The notes under the pieces are model-generated. The model was not told where the DNA came from and searched no databases. It worked only from the letters and a program-made list of their open reading frames with translations. A stretch of DNA of 64,000 nt from Salarchaeum japonicum (GTDB lineage: Archaea > Halobacteriota > Halobacteria > Halobacteriales > Halobacteriaceae): positions 2,113,564 through 2,177,563 of the forward strand of contig NZ_CP085324.1 of assembly GCF_020614395.1 (NCBI RefSeq). The letters are read 5' to 3'. A program made the translations under genes and the position numbers. This document shows, piece by piece, positions 20,476-62,019 of the stretch; positions within the stretch are counted from its first letter, which is position 1; every line of letters starts with the position of its first letter.

Positions 20476-20508
20476 ATGCGCGTCGCTCTCTCGGTAGTAC
20501 GTGGATAA
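20476..20508 (+). CDS. Putative Val leader peptide of valS
   Basis: A 10-residue ORF, MRVALSVVRG, ending in TAA 60 bases before the valS ATG. Three of ten residues are Val and two adjacent ones use GTA, a codon that looks rare in the surrounding GC-rich genes. The TATA element is placed for leaderless start at this ATG. The segment GGTAGTACGTGG (20493-20504) carrying the GTA pair can pair in 9 of 12 positions with 20540-20551, just before valS. This is as expected if ribosome stalling at Val codons changes the mRNA fold. Too short for statistical support, so it remains a hypothesis. Confidence 0.5.
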   Translation: MRVALSVVRG

Positions 20509-20568: not shown

Positions 20569-23202
20569 ATGACAGACGTTCCAGCGGACTACGACCCCGA
20601 CGAACTCGAACCGCGCCTCCAAGAGCGATGGCTCGACGAGGAAACCTACGCGTACGACGGCGACGCCGACACCGCGTACGTCATCGACACGCCGCCGCCC
20701 TACCCCACGGGCAACCTCCACATCGGGCACGCGCTCGGCTGGAGTTACATGGACTTCACCGCGCGCTACCACCGGATGCAGGGCCGCGACGTGCTGTTCC
20801 CGCAGGGCTGGGACTGCCACGGCCTCCCGACCGAGGTGAAAGTCGAGGAGAACGAGGACATCCACCGCACGGACGTGTCCCGCCAGGAGTTCCGGCAGAT
20901 GTGCATCGACCACACCGACGCCCAGATCGCGTCGATGAAGGACACGATGCAGGAACTCGGGTTCAGCCAGGACTGGAACCACGAGTTCCGGACGATGAAC
21001 CCCGAGTACTGGGGGAAGACCCAGCACTCCTTCACGGAGATGGCGGACGAGGGCATGGTGTACCGGGACGAACACCCCGTGAACTGGTGTCCGCGCTGCG
21101 AGACCGCTATCGCGGACGCCGAGGTCGAACCAATCGAGCGCGACGGCACCCTCCACTACGTCACGTTCCCCGGCGTCGATAACGACGACCTCGAAATCGC
21201 CACCACCCGCCCCGAACTGATGGCGGCGTGCGTCGCGATGGCCGTCCACCCCGACGACGACCGCTACGACGGACGGGAGGACGACACGTTCGAGGTGCCG
21301 CTGTTCGGCCACGAGGTCGGCATCATCGAGGACGAGGAGGTCGACCCCGACTTCGGGTCGGGCGCGGTGATGATCTGTACGTTCGGGGACAAACAGGACG
21401 TGGACTGGTGGGCCGAGTACGACCTCGACCTCCGCGCCGTCTTCACGGAGGACGGCCACCTGAACGAGGACGCCGGCGACTACGCCGGCCTCACCATCGA
21501 CGAGGCGAAGGAAGCCATCGCGGACGACCTCGACGCCGAGGGCTACCTGAACGACACCGAACCCACCGAGCAGTCGGTGGGCGCGTGCTGGCGGTGCGAC
21601 ACGCCCATCGAGATTCTCTCGAAGGAACAGTGGTTCGTCGAGGTGGACGAAGACCTCGTGCTCGACCTCGCGGAGGACGTGGAGTGGATTCCCGAGCACA
21701 TGCACGACCGCCTCGTGGACTGGGCGGAGGGCATGGAGTGGGACTGGGTCATCAGCCGCCAGCGCGTGTTCGCGACGCCGATTCCCGCGTGGGAGTGCGA
21801 GGACTGCGGGCACTGGCACATCGCGGACGCCGCCGAAACCCCGGTCGACCCCACCGAGGAAGACCCCGCCGTCGGGACCTGTCCCGAGTGCGACTCCGCG
21901 AACTGGACGGGCGAGACGGACGTGATGGACACGTGGATGGACTCCTCCATCACGCCCCTCCACATCTCGGGCTGGCCCGAGGACATCGACCTCGACGAGT
22001 TCGACCCCGTGTCGCTGCGGCCGCAGGGCCACGACATCATCCGGACGTGGGCGTTCTACACGCTCCTCCGCACCGGCACGCTCACCGACGAGAAGCCGTG
22101 GGAGGACATCCTCGTGAACGGGATGGTGTTCGGGCCGGACGGGAACAAGATGAGCAAGAGCCGGGGGAACGTCGTCGCGCCCGACGACGCCGTCGAGGAG
22201 TACTCGGCGGACGCGCTCCGGCAGGCGCTCGCGCTCGGCGGACAGCCCGGGAGCGACGTGCAGTTCCAGTGGAAGGAAGCGAAGTCCGCGAGCCGCTTCC
22301 TCACGAAACTCTGGAACATCTTCCAGTTCGCGAGCGGGCACTTCGACGAGGACACGCCCGACATCGACGCGCCCGCGTACCGGGACGCCGACGCCTGGAT
22401 ACTCTCGAAACTCACGCGGGTCGCGGACGACATGGAGGCCGAGATGGAGGCGTACCGGTTCGACGCCGCGCTCCGCGAACTCCGCGAGTTCGCGTGGAAC
22501 GACCTCGCCGACGACTACGTCGAACTCGCGAAGGGCCGCCTCTACAACGGCCGGCCCGGCGAGCGGGACGCCGCCCGGCACGCGCTCTACACGACCGTCT
22601 CCGCCGTCACGCGGATGCTCGCGCCGTTCAGCCCCCACCTCGCGGAGGAAATCTGGACGTACCTCCCCGGCACCGAAGGCAGCGTCCACAACGCCGAGTG
22701 GCCCGACCTCGAGTTCCACGACGAGAACGCCGAAGCGAAGGGCAGCGTCATCGCCGAAACCGCGAGCGACGTGCGCGCGTGGAAGTCCGAGACCGGCCGC
22801 CCGCTGAACGCCGAACTCGACCGCATCGAACTCTACCTCGAAACCGACGTCGAGGGAGCCATCGACACCTACGACCTCTCCGAAACCGTCAACGCACCCG
22901 TGAAAATCGAGACCGGACGGCCGAACGTCGAACTCGTCCCCGTCGACGTCGACCCGGACGACTCCCTCATCGGCCCCGAATTCCGGAGTCAGGCCGGCGC
23001 GGTCATCCAGGCGCTCCAGGACGCCGACCCCGCCGTCATCAAAGCCCGGAAAACCGAGGGCTCGATACCGCTCGACCTCGACGGCGAAACCGTCGAACTC
23101 GACCCCGAGATGGTCGACATCGAGGAAGACTACCGCGCCGAATCCGGCGAAGAAGTCGCCGTCCTCGAAACCGAGTTCGGGACGGTGCTCGTCTACCCCT
23201 GA
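20569..23202 (+). CDS. valS: Valyl-tRNA synthetase
   Basis: 877 residues, class I synthetase charging tRNA-Val. The HIGH motif is present ([12 protein letters not shown] near residue 52) and the KMSKS motif is in NKMSKSRGN. Between them lies the CP1 editing domain (about 190-390; [20 protein letters not shown]). Zinc-type Cys pairs are at [16 protein letters not shown] and CEDCG/CPECD. A helical anticodon-binding domain follows KMSKS and a short C-terminal domain ends the protein. It is preceded by a Val-containing leader ORF and an approximately 95-nt 5' region, unusual for haloarchaea where most mRNAs are leaderless. Confidence 0.97.
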
Positions 23203-57031: not shown

Positions 57032-58753
57032 CTATTCGAGTGCGTCCCGCCGCAGTTCGAATCCGGCGACCGGGACTTCCAGGTCGTGTTCGACGAGGAC
57101 TTCGGGGTGGAGTTCGCCGATAACGCCCACGTGTTCGCCGTCGATTTCGATGGCGGCGGTGCGGCCGTCGATGAACGACGGGTGGGTGGTGGGCGGGGTT
57201 TCGAGGGTGGCGTCGAACGCCCGGCAGAGCGACTGGAGCCGTGATTTCGCGTCCTCGTAGGAGGCGTCGTGGCGCGCGACGACGGCGGCGACCGTGTCGC
57301 GTTCGGCGACGCCCGTGTTCTCCGCGTCGTCGAGTTCGGCGGCGAACCCGACCTCGCCGAGGTTTTGGGGGTACGCGCGGTGCGTGTTGTTTTCGAGAAC
57401 CATCAGGAGGCTGGGGAGCGCCCAGGTGCGCAGAATCTCGTAGTCCTCGCTGTAGGGTTCTGCGATGGTCGCCGCGCGGCCGCCGCCGACGGCGTCGGTG
57501 TCGGGCGCGAGGTTCATTCGGTCGTAGTTCTCGTCCTCGGCAATCATGTGGAAGTTCAGGAGGCCCTCGAACCCGAGGCCGGCGAGCGTGTTCCGGACGG
57601 CGCGCGCGTGCCGGGAGTCGCTCGTGCGACCGCCGACGGTGCCGACTTCGGGATACCGGGGGACGAGTTCGTTGAAGCCGTGCGCGCGCCCCACGTCGTC
57701 CACGATGTCGACGGCGTGCAACACGTCCACGCGGTACGGCGGGACTTCGACGTCGTAGTCCACACCGTCGCCCCAGACTTCGGTTTCGACGCCCAATCCG
57801 GCGCGCTCCATGTAGTCCACGACCTCGTCCTCGGTGAGGTCGACGCCGAGCAGGGTCTCGATGCGGTCGTGCGTGACGTGTTTCTCCGTCGTCTCGAAGT
57901 CGGGGCGGACGAGCGTGCGGTCGGGGTACTCCACGTCCACGGACTCGATCTGGCCGCCGCGGGCGGAGAGCGCGTAGCAGAGGATGACGCACATCTTGTC
58001 GATAGTCCACTGGTCGGTGCCCGTGAGTTCGATGAGGAGGTCGCGGGAGTCCGTGGTGACTTCGGTGCGGCGGCCGTTGATGACGGGCGGGAAGCTGAAC
58101 AGCCCGAGGTCGTCGTAGATGGCCGGATACGTGTCGTGGCCCTCCACGAGGTCGGCGTACGTCTCGCCCGTGGGGTGGTCGGTGAGCACCTCGTCGGGCG
58201 TGAGTTCGCGGTCGGAGTCGAGCGCGACGAACATGTCGCCGTCGGGGCTGACGCCGCGGTACTCGATGGAGTTGGAGTCCTCTGCGGCGTCCGGCCCCAG
58301 CGAGCCGCCCTTCAGCATCGTGAGGTCGTGGATGCCGATAGCGCCCTTCGCGCGCTTGCGCCCCATCGTCGCGTGCAGTTTCTCCTGGAGCTGGATGAGG
58401 GAGTCGAGCGCGTCCTCGGTGAGGTTCACGTCCCGGACGATTGCGCCGGTGACGTACGGCCGGTAGTCGGGGACGGACTCGGCCACTTCGATAGTCCACT
58501 CGGGGTCGTTCGCGTCCGGCACGAAGATGCCGCGGGTGTCGCCGTACTGGTAGCGAAGCGAGCGCGCGACGCCCTCGACGCTCAATCGGTCGAGGCGGTC
58601 GGGCGCGAACTCCAGTTGGAACGCGCCGTCGTCGGTTTCGCCCTCGAATTCGAGGCCGAGCGCGAACAGGTCGTCCTTCAGTTCGTCGTCCGACTTCTCG
58701 TCGTGGCCCGTGAGCGTGCGGAGTTCGTCGGGGTCGATTTCGACGACGACCAT
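57032..58753 (-). CDS. pheT: Phenylalanyl-tRNA synthetase beta subunit
   Basis: 573 residues, archaeal-type short beta. B3/B4 region (DALDSLIQLQEKLHATMGRKRAKGAIGIHDL), B5 (VTHDRIETLLGVDLTEDEVVDYMERAGLGVE), then the catalytic-like domain with DIVDDVGRAHGFNELVPRYPEVGTVGG. No N-terminal tRNA-binding EMAP domain, as usual for archaea. Its ATG and the pheS stop share position 58753. Confidence 0.95.
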   Translation of the reverse strand: MVVVEIDPDELRTLTGHDEKSDDELKDDLFALGLEFEGETDDGAFQLEFAPDRLDRLSVEGVARSLRYQYGDTRGIFVPDANDPEWTIEVAESVPDYRPYVTGAIVRDVNLTEDALDSLIQLQEKLHATMGRKRAKGAIGIHDLTMLKGGSLGPDAAEDSNSIEYRGVSPDGDMFVALDSDRELTPDEVLTDHPTGETYADLVEGHDTYPAIYDDLGLFSFPPVINGRRTEVTTDSRDLLIELTGTDQWTIDKMCVILCYALSARGGQIESVDVEYPDRTLVRPDFETTEKHVTHDRIETLLGVDLTEDEVVDYMERAGLGVETEVWGDGVDYDVEVPPYRVDVLHAVDIVDDVGRAHGFNELVPRYPEVGTVGGRTSDSRHARAVRNTLAGLGFEGLLNFHMIAEDENYDRMNLAPDTDAVGGGRAATIAEPYSEDYEILRTWALPSLLMVLENNTHRAYPQNLGEVGFAAELDDAENTGVAERDTVAAVVARHDASYEDAKSRLQSLCRAFDATLETPPTTHPSFIDGRTAAIEIDGEHVGVIGELHPEVLVEHDLEVPVAGFELRRDALE

Positions 58754-60261
58754 CAGTACATCACCTCCTCATTGCGGAGGTAGTCGAGGTCGACGAGCGT
58801 GCCGTGCACGTCCCGAATGTCCTCCGCGCCGGTGACGAGCATCATCAGGCGTTCGAGCGCGAGCCCCCACGCCATCACGTCGCAGTCCACGCCGAGCGGT
58901 TCCAGCACCTCGGGCCGGAAGATGCCGGAGTTCCCGATTTCGATGATTTCGCCCGTCCGCGGGTGGCGGCCGAACAGTTCGAACGACGGCTCCGTGTATG
59001 GGTTGTAGTGGGGTTTGAACGTCACGTCCTCAATGCCGAACTGGCTGTAGAACTCCGTGAAGGTCCCCATCAAGTCCCTGACGCTGAGGTCGTCCGCCAT
59101 CACCCAGCCCTCGATCTGGAAGAATTCGAGGAGGTGCGTGGCGTCGAGCGTGTCGTTCCGGTACACTTTCTCGACGCTGAAGTACCGCTGCGGCGGTTCG
59201 AGGTCGCCCTCGGCCTCCCCGGAGAGGTAGCGCATCGAGAGCGACGTGGTGTGGCCGCGGAGGTCGAGGCCGCGCGCCATCTCCTCCGTCCACGGGCTGT
59301 GATAGCCCTCGCCGTCCTCGCCGACGCCGTTCCGGTGCGCGTCCTCGACCCGGGAGACGAGGTCGTCGGGGAGGTCGCGGATTTCGCTCGGCTGGGAGAG
59401 CGCGAACTGGTCCCAGTGGGTGCGCGCGGGGTGGTCTTGAGGCATGAACAACGCGTCGTTGATCCAGAACTCCGCGTCCACGTGCGGGCCCGCCATCTCC
59501 TGGAATCCCATACCGGTGAGGACGTCCTTGACGGTCTCCGCCATCTCGCGGAGCGGGTGGGTGCGGCCGGCGTTCACGTCCTCCGCGTCGGCTTCCACGT
59601 CGTACGACCGGAAGTCGGCGTCCCGCCACTCGCCGGAGGAGAGCACGTCGGGCGTGAGCTGTCCGAGGCCGCCCTCGGTTTCGACGCCCTCCATGAGCGC
59701 GGTGACGCCCGCGTCGGTGAGTTGGACGGTTCGGACGGTGCGTTCGGTGCGCGCGACGAGGTCGCGGCGCACGAGCGCGTCCACGACGGACTCGTCGGTG
59801 ACGGGTTCGCCGTCGGCGAGGCTCGCGAGCGCCGCGGCCTCCGCGTCGCCGTCCGGGTCGGCGTCGGGGTTCGCAGCGACGCTCCCGGCGTCGATGGTGC
59901 CGTAGCCCTTCCGCGCGAGGTTCGACAGCGCGATGTCCACCTGCGGGCCGTCCAGTCCGGCGCGCCCGAGGAGCTCCCCGAGCGACACGGGGTCGTCGGT
60001 CGCGCCCGCCTCGACGGCCGCGCGGTAGAGCCGGACTTCGGGCAGGCCGTCGTCGAGGTACTCGCGGGCTTCCTCGGTGAGTTCGAGGTCTTCCTCCACC
60101 GTCTCGGTGACGGAGAGCAAGCCCTCGTCTTCGAGTTCGAACGCCGCGCCCGTCACCGTCTCCGGCGGCAGGTCGGCCTCCGCGGCGATGTCGTCGATTC
60201 GTCTGGGTTCGTCCGCGCTCGCGGTTTCGAGCACCGCGAGCTGGTGTCGTGGTAGTTGCAT
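58753..60261 (-). CDS. pheS: Phenylalanyl-tRNA synthetase alpha subunit
   Basis: 502 residues from the ATG at 60261. An N-terminal winged-helix repeat region (about residues 1-180) precedes the class II catalytic core: HPLREMAETVKDVLTGMGFQEM, FSVEKVYRNDTLDATHLLEFFQIEGWV (motif 2), PSFELFGRHP and GLALERLMML (motif 3). Partner of pheT. An 88-nt interval to a Phe-rich leader ORF lies upstream. Confidence 0.96.
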   Translation of the reverse strand: MQLPRHQLAVLETASADEPRRIDDIAAEADLPPETVTGAAFELEDEGLLSVTETVEEDLELTEEAREYLDDGLPEVRLYRAAVEAGATDDPVSLGELLGRAGLDGPQVDIALSNLARKGYGTIDAGSVAANPDADPDGDAEAAALASLADGEPVTDESVVDALVRRDLVARTERTVRTVQLTDAGVTALMEGVETEGGLGQLTPDVLSSGEWRDADFRSYDVEADAEDVNAGRTHPLREMAETVKDVLTGMGFQEMAGPHVDAEFWINDALFMPQDHPARTHWDQFALSQPSEIRDLPDDLVSRVEDAHRNGVGEDGEGYHSPWTEEMARGLDLRGHTTSLSMRYLSGEAEGDLEPPQRYFSVEKVYRNDTLDATHLLEFFQIEGWVMADDLSVRDLMGTFTEFYSQFGIEDVTFKPHYNPYTEPSFELFGRHPRTGEIIEIGNSGIFRPEVLEPLGVDCDVMAWGLALERLMMLVTGAEDIRDVHGTLVDLDYLRNEEVMY

Positions 60262-60283
60262 TGTGCGTGTGCGCGTAGAGTAT

Positions 60284-60338
60284 TCGGAAAGCGATTCCGA
60301 TGCCCGCACGAGCGGTTTCAGCGCCGACCGGCCGGCGC
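60284..60338 (-). promoter_or_regulatory. Hairpins between the Phe leader ORF and pheS
   Basis: On the minus strand, after the leader: GCGCCG-GCCGGT-CGGCGC (60338-60321), then GAAACCG (60319-60313), then TCGGAA-TCGCT-TTCCGA (60300-60284). GAAACCG is a perfect complement of CGGTTTC within the leader's Phe-Gly-Phe codons (60371-60365). Two alternative folds, set by ribosome position, are therefore possible. Confidence 0.5.
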
Positions 60339-60349
60339 GTCCACCCTCG

Positions 60350-60427
60350 TTACGGGTCGAAAAAGAAACCGAACCCCGGGCCGTCGGCTTCGCGAACGAT
60401 GCGGCGCGCGTGGGATTCGGACGCCAT
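60350..60427 (-). CDS. Putative Phe leader peptide of pheS-pheT
   Basis: A 25-residue ORF ending GFGFFFDP and TAA, 88 nt before the pheS start. Four of the last seven residues are Phe (codons TTC, TTC, TTT, TTC). TTT looks uncommon in this GC-rich window. A TATA-like GTTTTTGC lies about 28 nt before the ATG (60451-60458), fitting a leaderless transcript that begins at this ORF. The architecture parallels the bacterial PheM leader of pheST (a short Phe-rich ORF before pheST). It may report Phe-tRNA shortage by ribosome stalling, with opposing RNA folds downstream. No experimental support known to me. Confidence 0.7.
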   Translation of the reverse strand: MASESHARRIVREADGPGFGFFFDP

Positions 60428-60465
60428 ACCCACACGGTCAGGGGGCGTCGGCAAAAACGTGTCGT

Positions 60466-62019
60466 CTACGCCCGCGTGGACGTGAGCTGGATGTCCGCGT
60501 CCGCCAGGAGGTCTTCGACTTCCGCGCGCTTCTCCTGGTGGTCGGCGAGGAACTCCTCCATCAACCGGGCGGCCTGCTCCTTGCAGTCCCCACAGAGCCG
60601 CTCGCCCTCGCGGCACTCCTCGTAGACGCGTTCGGCGAACTCGTCGTCGTCCGCGGCGAGGAGGTACGCGTACAGTTCGTAGACCGGGCAGTCGTCGGGC
60701 CGTCCGCCCTTCTCGCGCTGTTCCTCCGCGCTCTGCCGTCCGCCCGTCGTCGCGGACTTGACCTTGTCGTAGCCAGTCTCGGGGTCGTCGAGGAGGCTGA
60801 TGTGGCTCGCGGGAATCGAGGAGCTCATCTTCCCGCCCGTGAGCCCCGTCATGAACCGGTGATAGACCGACGAAGGCGGGACGAACCCGTAGCCGCCGTG
60901 TTCGACCTCCACGTCCTGCGCGAGGTCGCGGGCCTCGGCCTCGGTGAGGTCGAACGCGTCCACGTGCCCCTCGAACACGCGTTTCTCGCCCTCGACGGCG
61001 TCGATGAGCGCGTCGAACGCATCCGGCGTGGCGTTCCGGTCGAAGAAGCGGGTGCGGGGGCGGAGCGGTTCCATCCCGGCGTTCTCCAGTTTCTCCACTG
61101 TGGCCGAGAGCGTCGCCTCGTCCACGCCCTCGGGGAACGCGTCCGCGCCCTGTTCGGCGAGCCACTCCGCGGCCTCCGTACACCGCGGCGTCTCGGCGTC
61201 CTCGGCGTACTCGTCGCGGGCGTCGTAGGCGCGGGCGACGAGCGAGCGTTCGGCGTCGGTGAGTTCGAAGCTCGCGTACGCCTCGGTGACCTTGAAGTAG
61301 CGGGCGCGGGAGGCGAGGTCGCGCGCCAGCCGGATGTGCGGGTCTTGGTCGGGGCCGACGGGAATCACGGTCGGCTTCGGTTCCTCCAACTGGGGGTAGA
61401 GGATGTCCGCCATCTGCGTGACGACGGACTGCATGTGCGAGACGTCCGTCTCGCCGCCGAACCCGTAGATTGCTTCGAGCTCGCTGAAGTTCGCTTCCGC
61501 GCCGAGTTCGAACGCCAAGTCCTGGAGTTCGCGGTTCTCGGACTGCCGGTAGAGCGTCCCCTCCTCGGGGTCGAACCCGAGCGCGAGCAGGCTCAGGAGG
61601 TAGTTCCGCGAGTGTTCGTCTATCTCCTCCCAGGTAAGGCCGCGCGCGGCGTGCGCTTCCAGGTCGGCGATGAGCGCGTACGCGTCCCCGCCCTGCTGTT
61701 GGTGCCAGATTATCTCGTCGAACACGAGCTTGTGTCCGATGTGGGGGTCGCCGGTCGGCATGAACCCGGAGAGCGCCGCGAACGGTTCGTCCGCGCGCAT
61801 CGCGTCGAGGACGCGGCGGTAATCCCGGTGGCCGAAGATGATGGCGCGCCGCATCAGGTAGTGGGGGTTCGGCACCTCGTCGAGGAGGTCGTCGAACGCC
61901 TCGATGCCGAACTCGCCGAACAGTTTCTCGTAGTCGGAGACGGTCGACGACCCCCAGGGGTCGAGGGTCACGTCGTCCGCGCCGGCCGTGCCGTCGTCGC
62001 GTGGTGTGTCGTCAGTCAT
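60466..62019 (-). CDS. trpS: Tryptophanyl-tRNA synthetase
   Basis: 517 residues from the ATG at 62019. Class I synthetase with FMPTGDPHIGHKL (HIGH) and TGGKMSSS (KMSKS type). VPVGPDQDPHIRLARDLASR and the long C-terminal helical part are as in archaeal TrpRS. It overlaps endA by 4 bases (ATGA), so the two are co-translated. Unlike pheS and valS it has no leader ORF of its own. Confidence 0.95.
   Translation of the reverse strand: MTDDTPRDDGTAGADDVTLDPWGSSTVSDYEKLFGEFGIEAFDDLLDEVPNPHYLMRRAIIFGHRDYRRVLDAMRADEPFAALSGFMPTGDPHIGHKLVFDEIIWHQQQGGDAYALIADLEAHAARGLTWEEIDEHSRNYLLSLLALGFDPEEGTLYRQSENRELQDLAFELGAEANFSELEAIYGFGGETDVSHMQSVVTQMADILYPQLEEPKPTVIPVGPDQDPHIRLARDLASRARYFKVTEAYASFELTDAERSLVARAYDARDEYAEDAETPRCTEAAEWLAEQGADAFPEGVDEATLSATVEKLENAGMEPLRPRTRFFDRNATPDAFDALIDAVEGEKRVFEGHVDAFDLTEAEARDLAQDVEVEHGGYGFVPPSSVYHRFMTGLTGGKMSSSIPASHISLLDDPETGYDKVKSATTGGRQSAEEQREKGGRPDDCPVYELYAYLLAADDDEFAERVYEECREGERLCGDCKEQAARLMEEFLADHQEKRAEVEDLLADADIQLTSTRA

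Follow-up and report, generated by a model that had tools for sequence, protein, structure and literature searches.

A conserved Phe-rich leader ORF and RNA hairpin upstream of haloarchaeal pheST, a probable ribosome-mediated phenylalanine sensor

In Salarchaeum japonicum and many other haloarchaea, the genes for phenylalanyl-tRNA synthetase (PheRS) are preceded by a short, conserved open reading frame (ORF) that ends in a cluster of Phe codons and is followed, directly after its stop codon, by a hairpin with a GGA/GAA internal loop. We interpret this element as a ribosome-mediated phenylalanine sensor for pheST and assign a probability of roughly 0.7 to this sensing principle; the particular output step, survival of the transcript or its extension into pheST, is a tentative suggestion to which we give clearly less than even odds. 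Leaders of the same general design precede genes for other aminoacyl-tRNA synthetases (aaRS), and it appears probable, albeit with somewhat less confidence than for the Phe sensor itself, that haloarchaea possess a general, hitherto undescribed system for the control of at least four aaRS (Phe, Met, Trp, and Val) by short leaderless ORFs containing hungry cognate codons. For two of these enzymes, control would be exerted through a new RNA switch common to both, the GGA/GAA hairpin, which sits exactly behind the stop codon of the leader and would operate without a bacterial-type terminator. Such a system would be the archaeal counterpart of attenuation and T-boxes.

A Phe-rich leader ORF and its promoter

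The window analyzed here is a stretch of 64,000 nucleotides of the S. japonicum genome, in which trpS, the leader ORF, pheS, and pheT follow one another on the minus strand. The leader ORF (60350..60427; MASESHARRIVREADGPGFGFFFDP), with its ATG at 60427 and a TAA stop codon at 60352-60350, comprises 25 codons, ends with GFGFFFDP, and is separated by 88 nt from the ATG of pheS (60261), precisely as described in the sequence-only reading from which this analysis started. The putative regulatory codons, GGG TTC GGT TTC TTT TTC, encode GFGFFF (60359..60376) and include a T5 run (CTTTTTC). Downstream lie pheS, encoding the PheRS alpha subunit (58753..60261; PF01409, E = 2.7e-78), and pheT, encoding the beta subunit (57032..58753; PF17759 and PF03484). 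The upstream neighbor is trpS, the first gene for TrpRS (60466..62019), ahead of which no leader was detected.

Homologs of the leader are found upstream of pheS throughout the order. A search with the peptide as a query against 243 genomes of the same order (haloarchaea), 241 of which contain a detectable pheS, yielded full-length matches across many families; pheS follows closely in nearly all of the top matches whose surroundings were examined. When pheS upstream regions were drawn from approximately 120 genomes and reduced to 135 distinct regions, a Phe-rich ORF was present in 114 and absent from 21, under a criterion (a pair of Phe only a few residues apart, close to the ORF end) that may admit a few doubtful cases; this and all other conservation counts given here refer to a single order, with related species counted together. 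Close relatives thus carry the Phe-rich ORF that the sequence-only reading expected to be conserved ahead of pheS, and the observation is real and far beyond chance. The leader was identified in genomes of Halobacterium, Halorussus, Halorubrum, Haloferax larsenii, Haloarcula, Natrinema, and Natrialba; no leader of this kind was seen in the Halarchaeum genomes inspected. Given that about 15% of the pheS regions have no recognizable copy, the leader is dispensable.

The consensus of the leader peptides is MxSE(P/S)H...GFGFFFA, followed by the stop codon, with a mean of 3.6 Phe within the last 10 residues. Apart from the conserved ends, substitutions are largely nonsynonymous: across 34 close pairs, 210 of the 299 differing codons are nonsynonymous. 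The Phe cluster is thus retained in a peptide whose middle part is free to drift. A short upstream ORF in which cognate codons are clustered toward the stop, the feature of leader peptides as a class, is found here for Phe, as it is ahead of the genes for MetRS, the second TrpRS, and ValRS (see below). Codon usage within the cluster is skewed as well. In leaders with the GFGF motif, the first Phe codon is invariably TTC (77/77), and the next two Phe positions are TTT in 23/77 and 24/73 cases, an approximately fivefold enrichment over the background of 5.8%; a T5 run occurs near the end of 60 of the 114 leaders. The first Gly codon of GFGF (60374-60376 in the window) is GGG or GGA in 75 of 77 leaders, compared with 31% expected from the pheS coding sequence, a bias for which we found no explanation. 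One conceivable cause, base pairing between the conserved GGG-TTC codons and the hairpin's 5' arm, was rejected, being no better than with shuffled partners.

The leader ORF is preceded by a promoter, P1 (60428..60465, minus strand), consisting of a BRE-like ACACG and a TATA-like TTTTT that occupies positions -30 to -26 relative to the leader ATG (60457-60453). Alignment of 113 loci on the leader ATG revealed an A/T block at the same -30 to -26 positions, along with smaller blocks at -34/-33 and -11/-10, and the first TTTW begins at -30 or -29 in 91 of these loci. Judged by its sequence, P1 has the geometry of a leaderless haloarchaeal transcript; the TATA-like element that had been singled out in the window as suitably spaced for a leaderless start thus belongs to a spacing that is fixed in 113 loci.

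Published data on another species agree with this promoter geometry. Babski et al. (2016; PMC4983044) studied Haloferax volcanii by differential RNA sequencing, and their Table 2 includes a 26-aa upstream ORF (uORF) within a 150-250-nt 5'-UTR of pheS (HVO_2948; row 13) and a 23-aa uORF ahead of a tryptophan-tRNA ligase gene (HVO_A0127; row 12), and gives no additional start site at the main gene for either locus. These two entries are very probably members of the leader families described here, and Hfx. volcanii very probably carries the Phe leader element, although the Haloferax leaders in our sequences have 28 residues rather than the 26 aa of row 13, so that we infer the identity with that entry. 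The table places the uORF, presumably the leader, within the pheS transcript of Hfx. volcanii, which speaks against a transcription start downstream of the ORF, the outcome that the sequence-only reading had named as damaging to its proposal.

A second conserved element lies close to pheS (60281..60300, minus strand; TCGGAATCGCTTTCCGAATA here and CGGAACCGCTAACTGA elsewhere). It is located 24-33 nt ahead of the pheS ATG in most loci, matches a strict pattern in 79 of the 135 regions, and is also present in 14 loci without the leader. By its sequence, the element resembles a second promoter, P2, but because Table 2 of PMC4983044 lists no start site at pheS of Hfx. volcanii, we regard it as a candidate only; a promoter at this position could possibly bypass the leader.

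A covarying hairpin after the leader stop codon

Directly downstream of the leader stop codon, the transcript can form a hairpin, CGAGGGU-GGAC-GCGCCG...CGGCGC-UGAA-ACCGCUCG (60309..60349, minus strand), in which the outer and inner stems flank a GGA/GAA internal loop, usually of the form YGGAC/CGAAA. In the window, the minimum-energy fold is this hairpin, with an energy that is ordinary for the nucleotide composition (z -0.70). A fixed scoring rule identified the hairpin in 96 of the 114 leader loci, compared with 2.9% of shuffled sequences reaching the same score. In a set of 66 sequences, 89.5% of the cells are paired versus 64.4% in shuffles, a percentage inflated by the use of a pairing criterion in choosing the sequences; the stronger evidence comes from the number and kinds of two-sided changes in the stems, of which there are 195 versus 70.5 in shuffles. 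The covariation score is 0.642 compared with 0.190 in shuffles, with none of the 500 shuffles scoring as high, and the signal is lost when the partner strand is slid by one to three columns.

The placement of the hairpin relative to the ORF is equally constrained. It starts 1-4 nt past the leader stop, and in 88 of the 96 loci, the distance from the stop to GGA is 7-12 nt. Likewise in 88 of 96, the stem begins 12-18 nt away when counted from the first nucleotide of the last Phe codon.

An Rfam scan of positions 59900-60700 detected no plausible family, and the T-box model produced no match up to an E value of 5. Mimicry of tRNA by the hairpin, through GAA or through the CAU-like apical loops seen ahead of MetRS genes, was considered on inspection by eye and is disfavored, given that the GAA loop is common to the Phe and Met loci. 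A search with a covariance model of the hairpin recovered pheS sites in most genomes, and a few sites elsewhere, one of them ahead of a MetRS gene; several secondary matches inside coding regions look like chance. Three methyltransferase genes of Halorussus are also preceded by the hairpin, and in two of these, the stop codon of a short ORF falls inside it.

Leaders of other synthetase genes

The promoter-leader-hairpin layout recurs ahead of genes for MetRS, with Met codons replacing the Phe codons. Among 29 MetRS upstream regions inspected by eye, about half contain a short ORF with Met codons near the stop, followed by the same kind of hairpin; examples of the peptides, each running to the stop codon, are VIATGLPDNMRMRLLF in Haloferax, ...RAMRMRSDA in Halorussus, and VTRVASLVRSMRPR in the Salarchaeum genome. 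Some of the MetRS-leader hairpins have a similar apical loop, UCAUACGG. A scan for the combination of ORF, TATA element, and hairpin gave 63 matches in 1.8 Mb (both strands), nearly all ahead of pheS or metS; the scanned sequence consisted of loci picked around aaRS genes, and the count is not a genome-wide rate. An attempt to build a second model from a joint alignment of the Phe and Met elements was abandoned, the alignment being too ragged for use.

Leaders ending in a WRW motif precede the gene for a second TrpRS in 10 of 15 genomes by automatic scan and in at least one more by eye. One such leader lies in the Salarchaeum genome, near position 2196812. On a plasmid of Hfx. mediterranei, the WRW leader ahead of TrpRS, MVSTSHANCWRWHAFREVDSIAV to its stop codon, has 23 aa, the length of the uORF that row 12 of Table 2 in PMC4983044 reports in the same place. 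In many WRW leaders, the Trp codons are enclosed by a complementary stem, GTCCGCTCYC...GRGAGCGGAC, with changes on both sides.

In the window itself, valS (ATG at 20569, plus strand) is preceded, at a distance of 60 nt, by the leader ORF MRVALSVVRG (20476..20508, plus strand), which contains the codons GTA GTA CGT. The ValRS leaders have 9-11 residues ending in VVR(x), and GTA GTA CG is invariant in the 18 examined genomes with the same ValRS type; GTA accounts for 1 of 190 Val codons in the sampled valS coding sequence. The Val leaders do not have the GGA/GAA hairpin but keep the codons. For the synthetases of Ile, Leu, Thr, Ser, Pro, Tyr, and His, no leader with a convincing cognate pattern was found in the sampled genomes.

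The hairpin is common to the Phe and Met genes, and the codons match the enzyme encoded downstream, as a codon-reading sensor would predict; the simplest reader of these codons is hence a ribosome that stalls when the cognate tRNA is uncharged. Overall, ribosome-mediated, amino acid-specific control is the best explanation for the leaders of these aaRS genes.

Proposed mechanism and relation to known systems

We propose that the leaderless transcript begins at the leader ATG and that a ribosome translates the short ORF up to the GFGFFF codons. The leading edge of a ribosome reaches about 12 nt past the A-site codon. With ample Phe-tRNA, the ribosome would proceed to the stop codon and mask the hairpin's 5' arm with its leading edge. 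When Phe-tRNA is scarce, the ribosome would stall on the Phe codons with its leading edge approximately at the stop codon, leaving the GGA/GAA hairpin free to fold. The hairpin folded beside the stalled ribosome might then allow the long transcript to survive or to extend into pheST, such that starvation would raise the level of PheRS. Our preferred, unproven output is protection from termination by FttA/aCPSF1 or from RNA decay, perhaps via a bound protein; coupling of transcription and translation with FttA in archaea has been described in the literature as proposed. Several findings weigh against the scheme: no terminator is visible after the hairpin, and no covarying competing structure was found; some pheS regions have no recognizable leader; P2 might bypass it; the window hairpin is not unusually stable; and most substitutions outside the conserved ends of the leader are nonsynonymous.

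Of the alternatives, the one that fares best, though we deem it rather unlikely, dispenses with switching: stalled ribosomes would protect the leaderless pheST mRNA against decay at its 5' end, with the hairpin acting as a plain barrier. Stalled ribosomes protect erm leader mRNAs from decay in bacteria, and with transcription starting at the leader ATG in haloarchaea, a ribosome arrested 50-70 nt into the mRNA would shield the 5' end; the Val leaders, with their codons kept and no GGA/GAA hairpin, are compatible with such a role. The strict distance between the stop codon and the hairpin and the conserved GGA/GAA loop, however, suggest that the position of the ribosome with respect to the hairpin matters, as it would in the sensor that we favor.

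Bacterial-type attenuation, with a terminator/antiterminator switch operating through alternative pairing, would draw on the functional parallel with the E. coli pheM-pheST leader and on the T5 run found in more than half of the leaders. In Hfx. volcanii, transcription ends at some hairpins as well as at T stretches with a C behind them, T5C being the strong terminator motif in this organism (PMC7237163). However, the T5 run lies within the Phe codons and would already have been passed by RNA polymerase when the ribosome stalls. None of the 96 hairpin-pheS spacers contains TTTT, in line with the expectation of the sequence-only reading that the output is not of the bacterial type; terminators past the hairpin in the form of T stretches or AGATC were sought as well and are absent or not enriched. 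That reading had also pointed to a perfect complementarity between CGGTTTC in the leader (60365-60371) and GAAACCG (60313-60319). Both segments exist and are complementary in the window, but GAAACCG, rather than lying between two hairpins, forms the 3' side (internal loop and outer stem) of the single hairpin at 60309-60349, to which GAAACC belongs, and the complementarity is not conserved: in 49 of 77 leaders, GGC at the second Gly position disrupts the pairing, which is thus not supported as a switch. More generally, pairing of the leader with the 5' arm, of the leader with the 3' arm, and of the arms with downstream sequence was no better than with shuffled partners, and only the one hairpin covaries. 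With no TTTT in the 96 spacers and no pairing that surpasses the shuffled partners, a pheM-type switch is unlikely and unsupported, and we give bacterial-type attenuation in general a slim chance. What stands of the attenuation-like control originally suggested is the conserved leader, the leaderless start, the pheST target, and the nonbacterial output; the CGGTTTC:GAAACCG switch does not.

Slimmer still is the chance of autoregulation, in which the hairpin would be bound by PheRS or another protein that thereby represses or activates its own synthesis, with only an incidental ORF. The conserved GGA/GAA internal loop does resemble a protein-binding or structured-loop motif, but the same loop ahead of MetRS genes is not specific to PheRS, and conservation extends beyond the hairpin to the Phe codons and the leaderless promoter. 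A functional small protein that merely precedes pheS is comparably improbable: the N-terminal MxSE(P/S)H is conserved too, but the middle of the peptide drifts freely, and the peptides of the other aaRS genes are unrelated, sharing only their cognate codons.

We know of no ribosome-mediated, amino acid-specific leader-peptide control that has been worked out in Archaea. A limited literature search, covering open-license papers, identified no earlier regulatory interpretation of these leaders. In PMC4983044, the uORFs are tabulated as small proteins in 5'-UTRs; unlike the present work, the main text of that study does not contain the string "attenuat" and, as far as this text goes, offers no analysis of cognate codons, hairpins, or conservation.

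Control of pheST by a leader has a well-known bacterial precedent. In E. coli, pheST is controlled via the Phe-rich pheM leader peptide and an attenuator, and the haloarchaeal element similarly comprises a short Phe-rich ORF upstream of pheST, with the Phe codons as the presumed sensor. It differs from pheM in the leaderless archaeal transcript, in having neither a terminator-like T run across 96 loci nor an alternative pairing that we could find, and in the hairpin with the GGA/GAA loop past the stop codon, which is shared with MetRS; we do not claim a sequence relationship to pheM. The trp, his, and ilv attenuators of Proteobacteria and Actinobacteria likewise rely on leader peptides rich in regulatory codons, but they are usually found ahead of biosynthesis operons, with an intrinsic terminator at their end, whereas the haloarchaeal leaders precede aaRS genes and no such terminator was seen. 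T-box riboswitches of Gram-positive bacteria resemble the system described here in providing amino acid-specific control of aaRS through the 5' part of the mRNA, but unlike it, they read uncharged tRNA directly, without a leader ORF. If our interpretation is right, control of aaRS by the reading of codons extends to a second domain of life, where it employs a different RNA device on leaderless mRNAs, with implications for how archaea couple transcription to translation and for termination by FttA, a possibility that is directly testable in the genetically tractable Hfx. volcanii.
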